From Acidobacteriota bacterium (GTDB taxonomy: Bacteria > Acidobacteriota > Terriglobia > Acidiferrales > UBA7541), in contig QHYM01000314.1 of NCBI GenBank assembly GCA_003223295.1, positions 1 to 36,427 on the forward strand: DNA of 36,427 bases, given 5' to 3'. Position numbers and translations under genes: made by a program. The notes beneath the pieces are model-generated. The model did not search any database and had not been told where the DNA came from. It was given only the letters and a program-made list of their open reading frames with translations. This document shows, piece by piece, positions 2,761 through 23,637 of the stretch (position 1 is its first letter; each line of letters starts with the position of its first letter).

Positions 2761-3460
2761 GTGTGCTGAGCATGATCGACAGCTTGGCGGTGCAAGTCAC
2801 AACGTGATGGACGTGAAGTGATAAGCAAGTCGGCGAACGAGTGATGAGTAGCGTGACGCGACTCCTCACGACGAAGCTCAAGCTGCGAGTGAACAGGGAG
2901 AAGAGTGCGGTGGCTCGACCATGGGAACGGAAATTCCTGGGATTCAGCTTCACGAATCACAAGCAACCGAAGAGGCGCTTGGCGCCGAAAGCGGTGGCCC
3001 GGTTCAAGGAGCGAGTTAGGGAACTTACGCGTCGGACACGGGGGATAAGTCTCGCCCAGATGGTCCAGGAGTTAACGGAATATCTCCGTGGATGGATCGC
3101 GTATTTCGGGCGATGCGAAACCTCGAGCGTGCTCGAGGAACTGGCGCAATGGCTCCGACGTCGACTTCGGTCGATGGTCTGGAAACAGTGGAAACGAGGA
3201 ACTACAAGAGATCGAGAGCTCCGCAAGTGCGGCATCGCTGCGCAGGAAGCCGCGCAAACCGCCGGCAGCTCCGATGGACCGTGGCACTTCGCAAACACTC
3301 CCGCGCTAAAACTCGCTCTGTCCAACGCCTACTTCGCCTCGCTCGGACTTCCCGAGCTCACGGCTCATGGTTAGCTCAACCCGCCGAACCGCCGGATGCG
3401 GACCCGCATGTCCGGTCGTGTGGGAGGGGAGGACGGGTAACCGCCTCCCCTATCCCGACT
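2761..3460 (+). mobile_element. internally deleted group II intron with both RNA ends
   Basis: The 5' end reads GTGTG (2761-2765), matching the group II GUGYG start. At about 2784-2797 comes a GCGGTGCAAGTC segment like that found in domain I of many bacterial group II introns. This is fused to the C-terminal third of the reverse transcriptase (to 3374). The 3' end holds a domain V-like hairpin (about 3391-3415, CCGGATGCG/CGCAT..CCGG with a two-base GT bulge) and a domain VI-like stem (3422-3456) with an unpaired A at 3452, 7-8 bases before the putative 3' end, as expected of a branch point. Most of domain I and the reverse transcriptase N-terminus is missing. Insertion right behind a terminator is the habit of bacterial class C introns; class assignment is inference. 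Confidence 0.75.
2817..3374 (+). pseudogene. ltrA: group II intron reverse transcriptase/maturase, C-terminal remnant
   Basis: Only about 180 residues remain of a protein usually over 400 long. The remnant begins near GERVMSSVTR, after the YADD catalytic motif, which is gone. It keeps the thumb start (NREKSAVARPWERKFLG) and the maturase-specific domain (about LTEYLRGWIAYFG) and ends in GLPEL, the usual C-terminus of this intron type; no HNH endonuclease is present. Upstream, in-frame stops at 2805 and 2814 and a likely small deletion near 2815 break the frame. A GTG at 2841 could start a 177-residue protein. Without the palm domain it cannot reverse-transcribe; residual maturase activity cannot be excluded. 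Confidence 0.85.
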
Positions 3461-17817: not shown

Positions 17818-17930
17818 CATAGGAACCGGCCGTCGTTATCAGAACCCCGTGCCTCCGGCCCTTGTTCCTATGAGTTCGCGGGTTTAGGGCGGAGGCATTT
17901 CTTGGGAGAGTTATGCCTCCGCCCGCTAAA
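17818..17930. repeat. complex inverted repeats between convergent genes
   Basis: The 333-base gap 17693-18025 has no convincing gene. CATAGGAAC (17818-17826) pairs with GTTCCTATG (17864-17872). Next to it GGGCGGAGGCAT (17887-17898) pairs over 12 bases with ATGCCTCCGCCC (17913-17924); flanking TTTA and TAAA bases can extend that stem if two bases bulge. Neither strand has a strong T-tract. It may be a two-way terminator, a dispersed palindromic element or a structured RNA. Confidence 0.5.
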
Positions 17931-18025
17931 ACTTCTCTCCACAATTCGTCCCTCGTTTTTCGCCGCTTCCCATTTTATGTAGAACGGCAGCTAAGCGCAC
18001 GCCGCAGAACGCTGAGAGTCCGGCG

Positions 18026-18316
18026 CTAATTTGTCCGACGGCGCGCCAGAAGGTGTGCGAGCAACGCAAAGATTGCGTAATAAAACGCCGCGTTGCTCAC
18101 GATCGCAATGCGCAGGAACCAGCCAAACGTCCACGCGAGGGAGCCGTGGGTATCGGGCATAATCAGCTCGGCAATCTTCAAACCTGGTGAGAGCAGGACC
18201 AGCAGTGGGACCGGCATTTCTGCTTCCAGCGGCACGGCGACCGCCAGCGCCAGGAAACCTGCGATCAGGCCCAGCCCTCCGAAAAGCAGGTTGCGAATCA
18301 AGCGGTGTTGCGGCAT
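18026..18316 (-). CDS. small integral membrane protein
   Basis: A 96-residue protein of unknown function with about three hydrophobic segments: residues 8-30 (LLFGGLGLIAGFLALAVAV), a short one around PVPLLVLLSPGL, and 68-90 (FLRIAIVSNAAFYYAIFALL). It ends in a basic tail (ARRRTN). ATG 18316 is the only sensible start; no strong ribosome-binding site is seen. It is transcribed away from the amidohydrolase gene. Confidence 0.65.
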   Translation of the reverse strand: MPQHRLIRNLLFGGLGLIAGFLALAVAVPLEAEMPVPLLVLLSPGLKIAELIMPDTHGSLAWTFGWFLRIAIVSNAAFYYAIFALLAHLLARRRTN

Positions 18317-18508
18317 TACGATTCATTCTAGTCCGGTTCCGACGCATCTCCCTGAGCGAACACCTCGAAGTTGCTTTACATCGAAACTCTGAGACTCGAG
18401 TGAAAACTTGGCGGCTCGAATGGAATGGGCGTAGGAAAGGATTCCCGGTCGCGTGGTAACGCCCTTGTGGGAAGATACGTCTTTACCATCGTGACCACGA
18501 GGAACTTC

Positions 18509-19657
18509 ATGAGACTCCGCCGCACGGTAACTCTTGGCATTGCAATTCCCGTCGCCATTGCTGCTTTGTTGCTGGCGCGTGTCCACGCAAGAGCGCTGCA
18601 GCAAGATCAAAGCGCAAAGAAATTCTCGCAAGTCCCGACCATCGAGGAATATCAGCCAAAGTCCACGCTGGTCACCAAGGAACACAAAGTCGAGCGGGCA
18701 AAGTTTCCGTTCATTGACATTCACAGCCACCACTGGAATCCAACCGCCGAGGAAGTGGACCGCCTCGTGCGCGAAATGGACACCATCAACTTGCGCGTGA
18801 TGGTGAACTTGAGCGGCGGCACCGGGGAGCAGCTGCGGCAAACGGTTGCGACGATGAAAGGGCGCCACCCGGACCGCTTCGTGGTCTTCGCGAACCTGAG
18901 TTACGACGACATCAACACACCCGGCTATGGCAAGCGCGCGGCGGCGCGGCTCGAGCAGGACGTCAAGAAGAGTGGCGCGCAAGGGCTGAAAATCTTCAAG
19001 AATTTCGGGATGGACCTGAAGTACGCGAACGGCGAGCGCGTGCACGTGGACGATCCGGAATTCGATCCGGTGTGGGACAAATGCGCGGAGCTGGGCATTC
19101 CCGTGCTCATCCATATCGCGGAGCCTTCGCCGTTTTTCGATCCCTGGGACTATCACAACGAGCGCTGGCTCGAGCTAAAGCAATTTCCGGGACGCGCGCG
19201 TCCGCCGGAGAAATATCCGCCGTTTGAAACGCTGATGACCGAGCGCAACCACTTGTTCGCCAAGCATCCGAAAACGAATTTCATCGCCGCGCACCTGGCG
19301 TTTCACGGGAACGATCTTGAACGCCTGGGAAAAACTCTCGACTCCCTCCCGAACATGTATGTGGATATCGCGGCGGTGCTCGCCGAACTCGGGCGCCAGC
19401 CGTATTCCGCGCACGATTTCCTGGTGAAATATCAGGACCGCGTGCTGATGGGCAAAGACATCTACGACGTGAACGAATACAAGTGGTATTTCCGGGCGCT
19501 TGAAACGCGCGACGAGTATTTCGAGTATTACCGCCCGCGGCATGCCTTCTGGCGCATTTACGGGTTTCAGGTGCCCGACGAAGTGCTGAAAAAAGTGTAT
19601 TACCAGAACGCGCTAAAGCTCGTGCCGGGGGTCGACGCCAAGGCTTTTCCCGATTAG
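18509..19657 (+). CDS. amidohydrolase family protein (amidohydrolase 2)
   Basis: A 382-residue TIM-barrel metal-dependent hydrolase or decarboxylase. The ATG at 18509 follows GAGGAA; an N-terminal hydrophobic stretch (about residues 7-24) suggests export or anchoring. The metal-binding HxH is His72/His74 in DIHSHHW; later barrel His and acidic residues appear in VLIHIAEP, FIAAHLAFHG and MGKDIYD. It resembles the aminocarboxymuconate-semialdehyde-decarboxylase/dihydroxybenzoate-decarboxylase branch, but the substrate is not evident. Its last 17 codons reappear in diverged form at 22190-22240, downstream of the permease gene. Confidence 0.88.
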   Translation: MRLRRTVTLGIAIPVAIAALLLARVHARALQQDQSAKKFSQVPTIEEYQPKSTLVTKEHKVERAKFPFIDIHSHHWNPTAEEVDRLVREMDTINLRVMVNLSGGTGEQLRQTVATMKGRHPDRFVVFANLSYDDINTPGYGKRAAARLEQDVKKSGAQGLKIFKNFGMDLKYANGERVHVDDPEFDPVWDKCAELGIPVLIHIAEPSPFFDPWDYHNERWLELKQFPGRARPPEKYPPFETLMTERNHLFAKHPKTNFIAAHLAFHGNDLERLGKTLDSLPNMYVDIAAVLAELGRQPYSAHDFLVKYQDRVLMGKDIYDVNEYKWYFRALETRDEYFEYYRPRHAFWRIYGFQVPDEVLKKVYYQNALKLVPGVDAKAFPD

Positions 19658-19715: not shown

Positions 19716-22181
19716 ATGCCGATGGGCTTATTTCTCCAAGACCTGAAATACGCAGTGCGGCTGCTTGGAAAGGCCCCCGCATTTACCGCCGTGGCCGTGC
19801 TATCGCTCACGCTGGGGATTGGCGCGAACACCACGATCTTCACGGTGGCAAAGGCCTTCTTTCTGGAATCGGTGCCGGTCAAAGACCCGGGCCGCATGGT
19901 CAGTCTTTATTCGAACGCCCAGAGCCGTAAGGGCCCGCCGCAGGAATACCTCCCTACGCCCTACCTCAACGCTGTGGATTACCGCGAGAAAACCAATGTT
20001 TTTTCGGGGTCCTCCATCGCGATTTTCACCGGTGTCAAGTTTGTGATTTCTGGCAAGCAAACCCAGCAGCTCTTCGCGGAGCTGGTGAATGGAAATTTCT
20101 TTGACGTGCTCGGCGTCCAGCCTTTTCTCGGCCGGGGATTTTCGCAAGCCGAGGACGCTTCGCCCAGCCCCGTGGCCGTAATCAGCAACGCGCTGTGGAA
20201 CACGCAGTTCGGCGCCGACGCGGGAATTCTCGGTCGAACGATTCAGCTGAATCAGCAAGACTTCACCGTGATCGGCGTGGCGCCGGGCGAATTGCGTCGC
20301 GTCGGCAACCTGGGCAGCCCCGATGTGTGGATCCCCATCTCCATGCGCGACCAGATGCTCGACGGCGTGCAAAAGCAGTTTCTCTATGACCGCGGATTCC
20401 GCATGGCCGCCATGGTCGCGCGGCTCAAGCCGGGAGTAAATCTCAAACAAGCGCAAATCGCCGTAAGCGCGCTCGCGGTGGATCTCGAAAAAGAGTATCC
20501 GAAGCAAAACGGCGGCCGCAGCGAAATGCTGGTGCCCATCAACGAAACGGCGATTCCGCCGCAATTGCACAATGTCTTCGCGAAGGCGGGCGCCTTGATG
20601 ATGCTGATCGTCAGCCTGGTGCTGCTGATCGCGTGCGCCAACGTCGCGAATTTGTTGCTGGCGCGCGCGACGCAACGGCAGCGCGAAATTGCCGTGCGGC
20701 TGGCGATGGGTGCGGGACGCATGCGCTTGATCCGCCAGTTGCTTACCGAGAGCTTGCTGCTGGCGCTCCTCGGGGGCGCGTTCGGAATTCTCCTCGGCTA
20801 CTGTGGCAAAAAAGTGCTCTCTTCACTTCTGCCGCCGGGCCTGGCGCGCAATTTAAATCTCACCCTGGATGGCCGCGTCCTCGTTTACACGCTGGGTCTC
20901 GCCCTGGTTGCGATAATTCTCTTCGGCTTGGTTCCCGCGCTGCAAGCTTCGAGAATGGACCGCATGGCCTCGCTGAAGGACCGCACAAACGCACCGGGAG
21001 GCAGCGCGCGCTGGTACGGCCTTCGTGGAGTCCTGGTCATGGTGCAGGTAGGGCTGTCGCTGGTGGCTCTCGCGGGCGCGGGACTGTTTATCCATAGCTT
21101 GCGGAACGCGCAGCAGATCGATCCGGGTTTCGAGGTGAAACACGAGCTGGTCATGTTCGTCAACCTCGGGGCCGCGCAATACCCCCAAGCCCAGGCGGAG
21201 GCCTTTTACCGTGACGTGGTCCAGCGCCTCCAGACGTTTCCGGGAGTTGCCGGCGCAAGCGTCGCGGACGCTGGGCCATTCAGCGGAGGACTTCAACGGA
21301 CCACGTTCACCGATGGCGTGGACCTTAGTGATCCCCGCAACGGCAAGCTGACTCCTTTGATCGCCGTTGCCCCGGACTTCTTTCGGACGGCAGGCATCTC
21401 GCTGCTGGGCGGGCGCGCTTTCGACGAACAGGACAACGAGAAGGGAGCGATGGTTGCGGTCGTTAATCGGGCCATGGCGGAAAACTTCTGGCCGGGAAAG
21501 GATCCGCTCGGCAAGCATATTCACTTCCTGGGGGAGACCTGGGACATCACCGTGGTCGGTGAAGTCAATACCGTCAAGTACCAGACGCTGGGCGAACCCC
21601 CGCAGGCGATTATTTACGTGCCGTTGAAGCAGCATTACGCGCCGGCTGTGACCCTTTACGTGCGAACCAAGGAAGATCCGGAGAAGGCGCTGGCGAGCAT
21701 CCGCAGCACTGTGCAATCCCTGATTCCTTCGGTTCCGCTGACGAACGTTCAGACGGTGGAGCAGACTTTGGTGCAATCGCTGACGGCGCCGCGCATTGGC
21801 GCCCAGCTTCTGGGCACCTTCGGCGTGCTGGCTTTGATTCTCGCGGCCATCGGAACCTACGGGGTGATGTCCTATTCGGTCAGCCAGCGCACGCAGGAAA
21901 TCGGCATCCGCATGTCCCTCGGGGCGCAGGCCCGAGACGTTCGCCGGCTGATCCTCGCGAGCGGCCTGGCCATGGTGTCGACGGGCGTCGCGGCCGGGCT
22001 GGCGTTTTCGACCTTGCTCGCGCGAGCGATGAACAGCCTGCTTTTCGGCATCGGCTCGTTCGATGCCCCGAGCTTCCTGATTACCGCGGCGCTGCTGATT
22101 CTTGTAGCCATGGCGGCGTGCTGGATTCCGGCGCGCCGCGCCATGCGCGTCGATCCCCTGGTGGCGCTCCGGTACGAATGA
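19716..22181 (+). CDS. MacB/FtsX-type ABC transporter permease, duplicated-permease family
   Basis: An 821-residue inner-membrane protein. AGGAGG lies just before ATG 19716, and a TAGAAT at 19683-19688 may be its -10 box. The order is an N-terminal transmembrane helix (about 15-40), a MacB_PCD periplasmic domain, an FtsX block with three helices (from about LMMLIVSLVLLIACANVANLLLA), a further periplasmic domain, and a second FtsX block ending in the typical ARRAMRVDPLVALRYE. This two-module single-chain form is characteristic of acidobacterial orphan permeases. No ATPase gene is adjacent, so either a distant ATPase serves it or it acts without ATP hydrolysis. Possible roles are antimicrobial, peptide or lipoprotein export. 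Confidence 0.93.
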   Translation: MPMGLFLQDLKYAVRLLGKAPAFTAVAVLSLTLGIGANTTIFTVAKAFFLESVPVKDPGRMVSLYSNAQSRKGPPQEYLPTPYLNAVDYREKTNVFSGSSIAIFTGVKFVISGKQTQQLFAELVNGNFFDVLGVQPFLGRGFSQAEDASPSPVAVISNALWNTQFGADAGILGRTIQLNQQDFTVIGVAPGELRRVGNLGSPDVWIPISMRDQMLDGVQKQFLYDRGFRMAAMVARLKPGVNLKQAQIAVSALAVDLEKEYPKQNGGRSEMLVPINETAIPPQLHNVFAKAGALMMLIVSLVLLIACANVANLLLARATQRQREIAVRLAMGAGRMRLIRQLLTESLLLALLGGAFGILLGYCGKKVLSSLLPPGLARNLNLTLDGRVLVYTLGLALVAIILFGLVPALQASRMDRMASLKDRTNAPGGSARWYGLRGVLVMVQVGLSLVALAGAGLFIHSLRNAQQIDPGFEVKHELVMFVNLGAAQYPQAQAEAFYRDVVQRLQTFPGVAGASVADAGPFSGGLQRTTFTDGVDLSDPRNGKLTPLIAVAPDFFRTAGISLLGGRAFDEQDNEKGAMVAVVNRAMAENFWPGKDPLGKHIHFLGETWDITVVGEVNTVKYQTLGEPPQAIIYVPLKQHYAPAVTLYVRTKEDPEKALASIRSTVQSLIPSVPLTNVQTVEQTLVQSLTAPRIGAQLLGTFGVLALILAAIGTYGVMSYSVSQRTQEIGIRMSLGAQARDVRRLILASGLAMVSTGVAAGLAFSTLLARAMNSLLFGIGSFDAPSFLITAALLILVAMAACWIPARRAMRVDPLVALRYE

Positions 22182-22189
22182 CAGCGGCA

Positions 22190-22240
22190 AACGCGCTGAA
22201 GCTGGTGCCAGACATCGACGCCAAAGCGTTTCCGCAATAA
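22190..22240 (+). pseudogene. 3'-terminal fragment of an amidohydrolase gene
   Basis: Starting nine bases after the permease stop, this reads NALKLVPDIDAKAFPQ then TAA. The intact amidohydrolase ends NALKLVPGVDAKAFPD then TAG (19607-19657). About three quarters of the 51 bases agree, with several synonymous differences, so it is an old or foreign homologue and not a recent copy. No other part of an amidohydrolase gene is present here. Confidence 0.75.
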
Positions 22241-22255
22241 GGGCTGAATAGAAGA

Positions 22256-22276
22256 AGTGGCGAGTGACGAGTGGCG
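22256..22276 (+). repeat. three tandem heptamers
   Basis: AGTGGCG, AGTGACG, AGTGGCG in direct succession, immediately abutting the LysE fragment. It is a short low-complexity run of the kind common between genes. Confidence 0.5.
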
Positions 22277-22326
22277 AAGTAGGCGCAAAGGGTGATCATG
22301 CAGAGGCCGGAGGCGGCGCGCTGGCG
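22273..22326 (-). pseudogene. 3' fragment of a LysE-family exporter gene
   Basis: On the minus strand this reads RQRAASGLCMITLCAYFA, against RQRTASGLGMIGLGAYLA at the end of the intact LysE gene (23032-23085). By eye 46 of 54 bases agree. The fragment has lost its stop and upstream body. It faces the amidohydrolase fragment, so the pair looks like the convergent junction of two former genes. Confidence 0.75.
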
Positions 22327-22359
22327 GACAACCACTGATGAAAAGACTCCCGGTGCGGT

Positions 22360-22365
22360 TAGAAT
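22360..22365 (+). promoter_or_regulatory. -10 box of the DUF433 gene, probably leaderless
   Basis: TAGAAT lies six bases before the ancestral ATG at 22372, so transcription would begin at about that ATG. No clear -35 is visible. Confidence 0.4.
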
Positions 22366-22371
22366 GAGGAC

Positions 22372-22964
<593 letters not shown>

Positions 22965-23013
22965 TGCGCGGGAGCAGCCTCGGAAGCCAGCCTGTGGAAT
23001 AGCTGTCCCACCG

Positions 23014-23637
23014 TTACTTGGAGTCGGCCAGGGCGAGGTAGGCGCCGAGGCCAATCATGCCGAGGCCGGAGGCGGTGCGCTGGCGGCGACGGAAACGGAC
23101 GCTGTTCTTCAGCTTGCGCTCGAGGGGAGAGGCCATGCCGACGACCACGAGGTCGGCGGCGGTATTCAAACTGACGGAGACGCAACCGAGCACGGCGAAT
23201 TGAAAGAAGACGTGTCCGTGGGCCGGAGCGACGAATTGCGGGATGAAGGAGAGGAAGAACAGCGCGGTTTTGGGATTCAACACTTCGGTGAGGATGCCCT
23301 GGCGAAAAGCGCCGGTGGATGGTCCCGCAGCTTCCACGGTCATTTCCGCGTTGCGCGTGAGGATCATGCGGATGCCGAGCCAGACGAGATAGGCGGCGCC
23401 GGCGTATTTGACGGTGTGAAACGCGACCGCAGAGGCCGCAAGAATCGCGGAGAGGCCAAGAGCGGCGGCGAAGACGTGGAAGAGTCCGCCAACGAAAGTG
23501 CCGAGAGAAGAAAGGATACCTTCGCGCTTTCCGCCGGCAAGGCTGCGCGCCAGAACGTAGAAAATGCCTGGGCCGGGCGTGATGGCCAGGAGCAAGGCAG
23601 CGGCGAAGAAAAGCAGCAAGCGATGCGCGTCGAACAT
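23014..23637 (-). CDS. LysE/RhtB family amino-acid exporter
   Basis: A 207-residue inner-membrane exporter of amino acids or related metabolites. The start is ATG 23637 (MFDAHRLLLFF). It has six hydrophobic segments and the family hallmark ITPGPGIFYVLARSLAGGKREG in the first loop. NPKTALFFLSFIPQFV is the second conserved block. The frame is open further upstream, but that part only translates the intergenic repeat. The promoter TTGCAC-17-TACAAT places the RNA start about at the ATG, so the mRNA is probably leaderless, which explains the lack of a ribosome-binding site. A diverged copy of its 3' end is at 22273-22326. Confidence 0.92.
   Translation of the reverse strand: MFDAHRLLLFFAAALLLAITPGPGIFYVLARSLAGGKREGILSSLGTFVGGLFHVFAAALGLSAILAASAVAFHTVKYAGAAYLVWLGIRMILTRNAEMTVEAAGPSTGAFRQGILTEVLNPKTALFFLSFIPQFVAPAHGHVFFQFAVLGCVSVSLNTAADLVVVGMASPLERKLKNSVRFRRRQRTASGLGMIGLGAYLALADSK

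Follow-up and report, generated by a model that had tools for sequence, protein, structure and literature searches.

Restriction-modification systems have been described as inserting with long target duplication (Nobusato 2000 and Furuta 2010, via the available text of PMC3874152 and PMC3031569), and the 'long target duplication' papers that mention toxin-antitoxin (TA) systems concern, among the matches listed and in the portions available, restriction-modification systems or cite such work. Homology-facilitated illegitimate recombination is known from transformation and conjugation experiments (available text of PMC3240628 and PMC2884548). For rhs tips, a circular intermediate leading to C-terminal displacement has been proposed (PMC2935791), and T6SS effector-immunity modules have been suggested to undergo displacement by the same logic (PMC5361080), in the accessible parts of both papers. 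TA systems of the PIN-COG2442 or VapBC10 type have also been described (PMC3834315, in part); among the matches listed, no mobility by flanking gene tails was found in the PIN-COG2442 or DUF433 literature. The term DUF5615 was not found in the literature searched, most subscription papers lying outside its scope, and no paper joining 'toxin-antitoxin' with 'homology-facilitated illegitimate recombination' was found there. Similarly, a flanking-tail scar had no report for TA pairs among the matches listed, mostly without subscription papers.

The structure described here bears on how small TA pairs, lacking a transposase, move from one chromosomal site to another. It is a variant of a known insertion scar, noted around DUF433-DUF5615 TA operons in Acidobacteriota; the recombination step behind it is one that we infer.

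Two repeated gene tails in the window

The window, the whole 36,427-nt stretch of DNA analysed, corresponds to contig C11 in a genome of 6.03 Mb that is fragmented into 481 contigs, and the closest named relatives of its amidohydrolase, all uncultured MAGs, belong to Acidobacteria 'gp2' and Candidatus Acidiferrum. A preliminary description had placed the end of an amidohydrolase and, on the opposite strand, the end of a LysE exporter between a permease and a TA pair. Both fragments are found where it put them (Table 1), and the identities it gave, 76% and 85%, are correct. The displaced amidohydrolase tail, which starts eight bases past the permease stop, matches the intact end at 39 of 51 bases through the stop codon and reaches 82% over 44 nt (19607-19650 against 22190-22233), the two copies translating to NALKLVPDIDAKAFPQ and NALKLVPGVDAKAFPD, each followed by a stop. 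The LysE tail repeat is 85% identical over 55 nt, and its displaced copy ends without the last codons and the stop. Repeats and layout also agree with the earlier statement that the permease and the TA pair are each bracketed by repeated gene ends.

Compared with the whole genome at E <= 0.001, the junction DNA had the LysE end as its sole second match (E 4.1e-11); the amidohydrolase tail, a shorter match, fell below the E 0.001 threshold in this search. A copy of the amidohydrolase tail sought downstream, from 100 nt to about 5 kb past the gene, scored 24 in the window (at 22190), and the best of 75 other amidohydrolase loci scored 15. In our reading, two separate insertions displaced these native gene tails; we do not take the fragments for the remains of a single pair that was rebuilt or duplicated.

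On the side of LysE away from the TA pair lies glpX. The DUF433 family is presumably the same as COG2442. Within positions 22611-22700, the DUF5615 frame differs by one base in length from the uninterrupted copy in a congener, G012; with its frame broken, the TA pair of the window is probably decaying. Elsewhere in the window, an ORF at 2841-3374 resembles the C-terminal portion of a reverse transcriptase/maturase, putatively that of a group II intron.

Table 1. Features of the amidohydrolase-LysE region, in window coordinates
Feature	Position	Strand	Basis
Intact amidohydrolase (Amidohydro_2, PF04909)	18509..19657	+	Pfam
Intact amidohydrolase tail, copied at 22190-22240	19607..19657	+	Repeat alignment
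Insert 1: ADOP-family duplicated permease (TIGR03434)	19716..22181	+	Family match; relatives
Displaced 3' tail of the amidohydrolase (16 codons, then TAA)	22190..22240	+	Repeat alignment, translation
Spacer between the two displaced tails, with different sequence in place of the final LysE codons	22241..22272	+	
Displaced LysE 3' tail, 18 codons, ending before the stop	22273..22327	-	Repeat alignment
Insert 2: DUF433-DUF5615 stretch between the two LysE tails	22328..23013	+	G012 joint
Antitoxin-like DUF433 gene (PF04255)	22413..22613	+	Pfam
DUF5615 PIN-like toxin gene (PF18480); compared with the G012 copy, the frame is interrupted close to the start	22611..22940	+	Pfam
Intact LysE family exporter (PF01810)	23014..23637	-	Pfam
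Intact LysE tail, copied at 22273-22327	23032..23086	-	Repeat alignment

The two sites in related genomes

A LysE orthologue (76-95% identity) is present in 11 of 35 congeners in addition to the window genome, and an amidohydrolase lies convergent to it in two of these 12 genomes, the window genome (G000) and G025. At the G025 locus (L061, G025:C43), glpX again lies beside LysE and neither insert is present; this is apparently also the one locus with LysE nearby among 80 named amidohydrolase loci. The G025 pair makes a convergent neighbourhood plausible. The former convergent amidohydrolase-LysE pair of the preliminary description, and the adjacency that it expected in relatives, thereby stand in part: the two genes do converge in G025, but their stops are 958 bp apart, an ungapped pair was absent from all genomes examined, and we read the scars of the window as those of two insertions. 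Frames in the G025 gap read, by eye, like a broken retron-type reverse transcriptase; one 100 aa probe from this gap gave no Pfam match.

Each insertion has a counterpart in one relative. In G031, the amidohydrolase is followed by the same permease (90% identity), with no second amidohydrolase tail and with no LysE match at E <= 1e-40. Besides the window genome, G031 was the only one of the 35 congeners with a permease match at E <= 1e-250, at most 27 candidates being scored per genome; in G018, an apparent degraded permease start, read by eye, follows the amidohydrolase, with nothing more of the permease. In G012, LysE is followed by the TA pair and then by a LysE tail. The left joint of this insert, where CGCTGGCGG meets ACAACC, is identical in G012 and in the window. 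The G012 tail matches the intact LysE end at 70 of 72 bases (97%) and runs to the stop codon, and is succeeded by different sequence in which there is no amidohydrolase tail. Since each scar or insert is found without the other in relatives (G012, G031), the permease and TA insertions appear to have been separate, and the shared joint suggests that the TA insertion at LysE is older than, or shared between, the window genome and G012. An empty site with the same flank was not found among these relatives, either for LysE or for the amidohydrolase.

The same layout at other genes

The two fragments mark the readable end of a broader pattern, and the same layout recurs at unrelated genes. A TA pair of this kind is found in G028 and G013 at the end of an OB-fold/HD gene, which we take to be YhaM-like here and in G027, with a copy of the gene's tail on either side; G027 has a more distantly related DUF5615 gene at the same gene, with a repeat of its own. 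An MFS-like gene in G003 (the name being read from the sequence) likewise shows the order gene, cargo, tail. At GGT, the most legible of the sites, filled and empty states are both observed. The G012 site (L225, G012:C443, 7465-10021) reads GGT, TA pair, tail, tannase, tail and native flank, such that a TA pair and a tannase/feruloyl esterase form two nested cargos with a displaced GGT tail after each, and in G019 (L218) GGT lies directly on the same native flank. The G025 site holds tannase-like DNA, its ORF split, without the TA pair, and in G018 a PepSY gene lies between GGT and the native flank. As both tannase and TA pair are found as inserts at this site, the cargo includes ordinary genes too.

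For the YhaM-like insert, an empty site with the same left flank was not found, this flank matching elsewhere in the relatives. Over the last 100 nt of the gene, 15 of 36 genome pairs (L219, L093, L221 and others) show an identity of 92% or more, and the next 100 nt are 75-93% identical between genomes, with another internal bin reaching up to 97%. The ends are thus more alike between species than most of the gene body, a likeness expected from exchange of tails, and the alignments suggest that tails may indeed have passed between species; the competing explanation is constraint on the DNA.

To measure recurrence, the 1.5-kb flanks on both sides of DUF5615 matches were compared, and a direct repeat was counted at a score of at least 22. 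The genus set consisted of 76 loci from 84 rows (7 weak rows left out, 2 neighbours merged), two of which lacked flanks, and the class set of 67 rows outside the genus, taken near the top of the matches listed with a few skipped, three of which lacked flanks. Bracketing direct repeats were detected at 30 of 138 loci (17/74 in the genus and 13/64 elsewhere in the class). By comparison, 2 of 500 random positions, drawn from 340 kb of stretches around other genes in the genus and not from whole genomes, had a direct repeat at this score (Fisher p = 2e-14 vs 17/74). Inverted repeats at the same score were seen at 0/74 genus and 1/64 class loci, and the threshold was reached by 0/598 cross-locus pairs in one comparison and 1/580 in the genus set, this single value (142.5) coming perhaps from related loci. 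The insertions of G000 and G012, and those of G028 and G013, were probably shared, so that independent events in the genus number fewer than 17. PIN-domain loci had a bracketing repeat in 2 of 29 cases, which is not significantly different from 17/74 (p = 0.09), and the enrichment may therefore extend to other TA pairs. One of the bracketed DUF5615 loci outside the genus (G299) lies within one contig of 6.2 Mb, so assembly error is unlikely to be the general explanation.

Of the 30 positive loci, 18 have an insert of 604-845 bp, about the size of one TA operon, the DUF433 partner being presumed at these loci selected by DUF5615. Repeats span 25-179 nt and differ from site to site in length and sequence, the G077 repeat being 98% identical over 137 nt. 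A repeat copy ends an ORF in 21/30 positive loci versus 10.4 expected with random placement, a count based on open frames of 120 codons or more, of which some may be spurious, with the expectation computed likewise. No conserved ends or terminal inverted repeats of TA inserts were recognized by eye in the insert ends examined. Away from TA loci, a scan of 400 kb of G028 and G019, which needs 11-base seeds and E <= 1e-6 and is blind to the window's own amidohydrolase tail, passed 11 short direct repeats; the five inspected included one gene-tail layout, with a VapC-type cargo, and one repeat at a gene start. With one gene-tail layout in 400 kb, the scar looks rare outside TA loci.

The VapC-type case lies in an unselected stretch (L230, G028:C1:120001-140000, 17838-19325), where a PIN gene of this type and its neighbours are bracketed by an 86% gene-tail repeat. 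Five DUF5615 loci (L095, L096, L110, L112 and L120), some with larger cargo, lie beside sequence that by eye resembles tRNA 3' ends; these are possibly ordinary tRNA-targeting islands.

Origin of the displaced tails and relation to known systems

Displaced tails differ in whether they most resemble the gene beside them. The YhaM-like tail of G027 shares 95-96% identity with the ends of G028, G029 and G008 but 86% with the gene beside it, at a bootstrap value of 1.00. For the GGT tail of G012 the identities are 92% with G018 and 85% with its own gene (0.92), and for the window amidohydrolase tail 82% with G008 and 76% with its own gene (0.81). The nearest relative is ambiguous for the amidohydrolase tail and for the YhaM-like tails in G028 and G013 (0.74 and 0.58). 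In G012, the LysE tail has the gene beside it as its nearest relative (96%), and the LysE tail of the window has decayed (70% identity with its own gene and 74% with G012, over 74 columns). Mismatches fell at third positions in 53 of 108 cases overall (p = 5e-4, the comparisons being non-independent), with an excess at p < 0.05 in 4 of 11 comparisons, nominal and likewise non-independent; these include the window amidohydrolase tail (6/8) and not the window LysE tail (2/8). Decay after insertion could give the same signal. A test for a body/tail mosaic in the amidohydrolase gave p = 0.004 in one of six comparisons and p > 0.05 in the other five.

We reject simple duplication as the source of every tail on account of the YhaM-like gene of G027, whose tail is closer to other species. 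The foreign-like tails of G027 and, less firmly, of GGT in G012 indicate that pure target duplication is not enough for every case, and the G012 LysE tail, closest to its own gene, indicates that pure replacement by a foreign tail is not general either. Homologous exchange with a related locus, which the preliminary description had invoked, thus retains a role insofar as some displaced tails look foreign, but not for a single rebuilt pair.

Given the anatomy, the TA/LysE joint shared with G012, the empty and filled states at GGT and the recurrence at unrelated genes, all of which are observed, we assign a probability of roughly 70% to the reading in which the fragments are the old 3' ends of the amidohydrolase and LysE, pushed off the gene bodies by an insertion at each tail. 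Each insertion would leave the order intact gene, cargo and old tail, the first cargo being the ADOP permease and the second a bare DUF433-DUF5615 TA operon. The cargo would enter by recombination, which we infer to use the gene tail as homology arm on one side, either from a linear piece whose far end is joined illegitimately or from a small circle holding cargo and tail; alternatively within the same reading, the cargo may insert and copy the tail, with the old tail left past the cargo. The host gene would stay whole because a complete tail arrives with the cargo or is copied beside it. The repeats may later drift or be exchanged between species, and the TA pair may persist because its loss would putatively harm the cell. 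A possible trace of the far joint is found in G031, where CAAACGCGCT lies just downstream of the permease: AACGCGCT is present both there and at the start of the window's displaced amidohydrolase tail, and such a match of 8 nt has a value of 0.001 in shuffles of 60 nt. It could be microhomology at this joint or, equally possible, a shared relic. Against the displaced-end reading, the amidohydrolase fragment is only 51 nt long, the permease of G031 comes without a second tail, neither an ungapped amidohydrolase-LysE pair nor an empty LysE or amidohydrolase site with the same flank was found in the genomes examined, and the G012 LysE tail fits simple target duplication better than a foreign tail.

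Among the alternatives, we consider insertion with long target duplication a credible contender, albeit at clearly less than even odds. Here the TA operon would insert alone and copy 25-180 bp of target, giving tails that are identical at birth and then decay, in line with inserts near the size of one operon (604-845 bp in 18/30), with repeats whose length and sequence vary by site, with the LysE tail of G012 (97%, nearest its own gene) and with the G077 repeat. It fits less well with the tails nearer other species' genes, firmly in G027 and less so at GGT in G012, and with the permease and tannase cargos, which are not TA pairs. Integrase-borne islands that use gene 3' ends as attachment sites leave the order intact gene, element and 3' fragment. 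This layout matches the one seen here, and some DUF5615 loci carry the tRNA-like repeats noted above, but Pfam assigns the two genes of the window TA insert to DUF433 and DUF5615 and reports no integrase domain in them, the LysE insert of 685-704 bp leaves little further room, and the repeats and insert ends examined vary between genes and show by eye no shared att core, so that a remnant of such an island is improbable. Old tandem duplication of the amidohydrolase-LysE segment with loss of most of one copy, the other origin offered by the preliminary description, would orient both tails as observed, but we reject it as highly improbable because each scar or insert occurs alone (the TA-in-LysE scar of G012 has no amidohydrolase fragment, and G031 has amidohydrolase and permease without a LysE match at E <= 1e-40), no second full copy was present among the relatives' loci compared, and the cargos were absent at both sites in these relatives except for the permease in G031 and the TA pair in G012.

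A more general proposal, which we advance as a tentative and rather doubtful one, is that the bare DUF433-DUF5615 operon (about 0.6-0.85 kb), with no recombinase, might be mobile across the class, preferring gene 3' ends, leaving a direct repeat of 25-180 bp, spreading between species by homologous recombination via the tail it carries, and guarded against loop-out by post-segregational killing. If about one in five DUF5615 loci keep a readable scar, then many genomes offer insertion sites, donor tails and joints for mapping, and simple counts would tell target duplication from one-sided recombination. For annotators, short gene-end fragments near accessory genes can be insertion footprints and not duplications.

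Compared with long target duplication by restriction-modification systems, as far as the available text describes it, the likeness lies in a selfish unit between variable direct repeats of about 100 bp with no known mobile element, and the corresponding hallmarks are present here as flanking direct repeats at 30 of 138 loci and as the empty single-copy GGT site of G019. Here, however, what is carried is either a DUF433-DUF5615 TA pair or a gene of metabolism or transport, gene tails make up many of the repeats, and in some repeat pairs a copy has its nearest relative elsewhere. An intermediate that is linear and joined illegitimately at its far end would match homology-facilitated illegitimate recombination (PMC3240628; PMC2884548, in part), with which the present scars would share one-sided homology, non-homologous joining at the far side and gain of foreign DNA; unlike in those experiments, scars alone are observed here, with a possible 8-nt microhomology as the far joint. 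As in PIN-COG2442 or VapBC10-type TA systems, in the portion of that literature available, a DUF433 antitoxin lies beside a PIN-like toxin. A circular intermediate would instead match the model for rhs tips (PMC2935791, in part). As in the displacement described there and for T6SS modules, old ends are shunted downstream by new ends and cargo, which may form strings, and an old 3' end does lie downstream of the cargo in the window, as do two displaced tails at GGT in G012. In the accessible accounts of those systems the tips or effectors change function, whereas here an ordinary protein has the same end whichever tail, new or old, encodes it, and the host gene is left unchanged.
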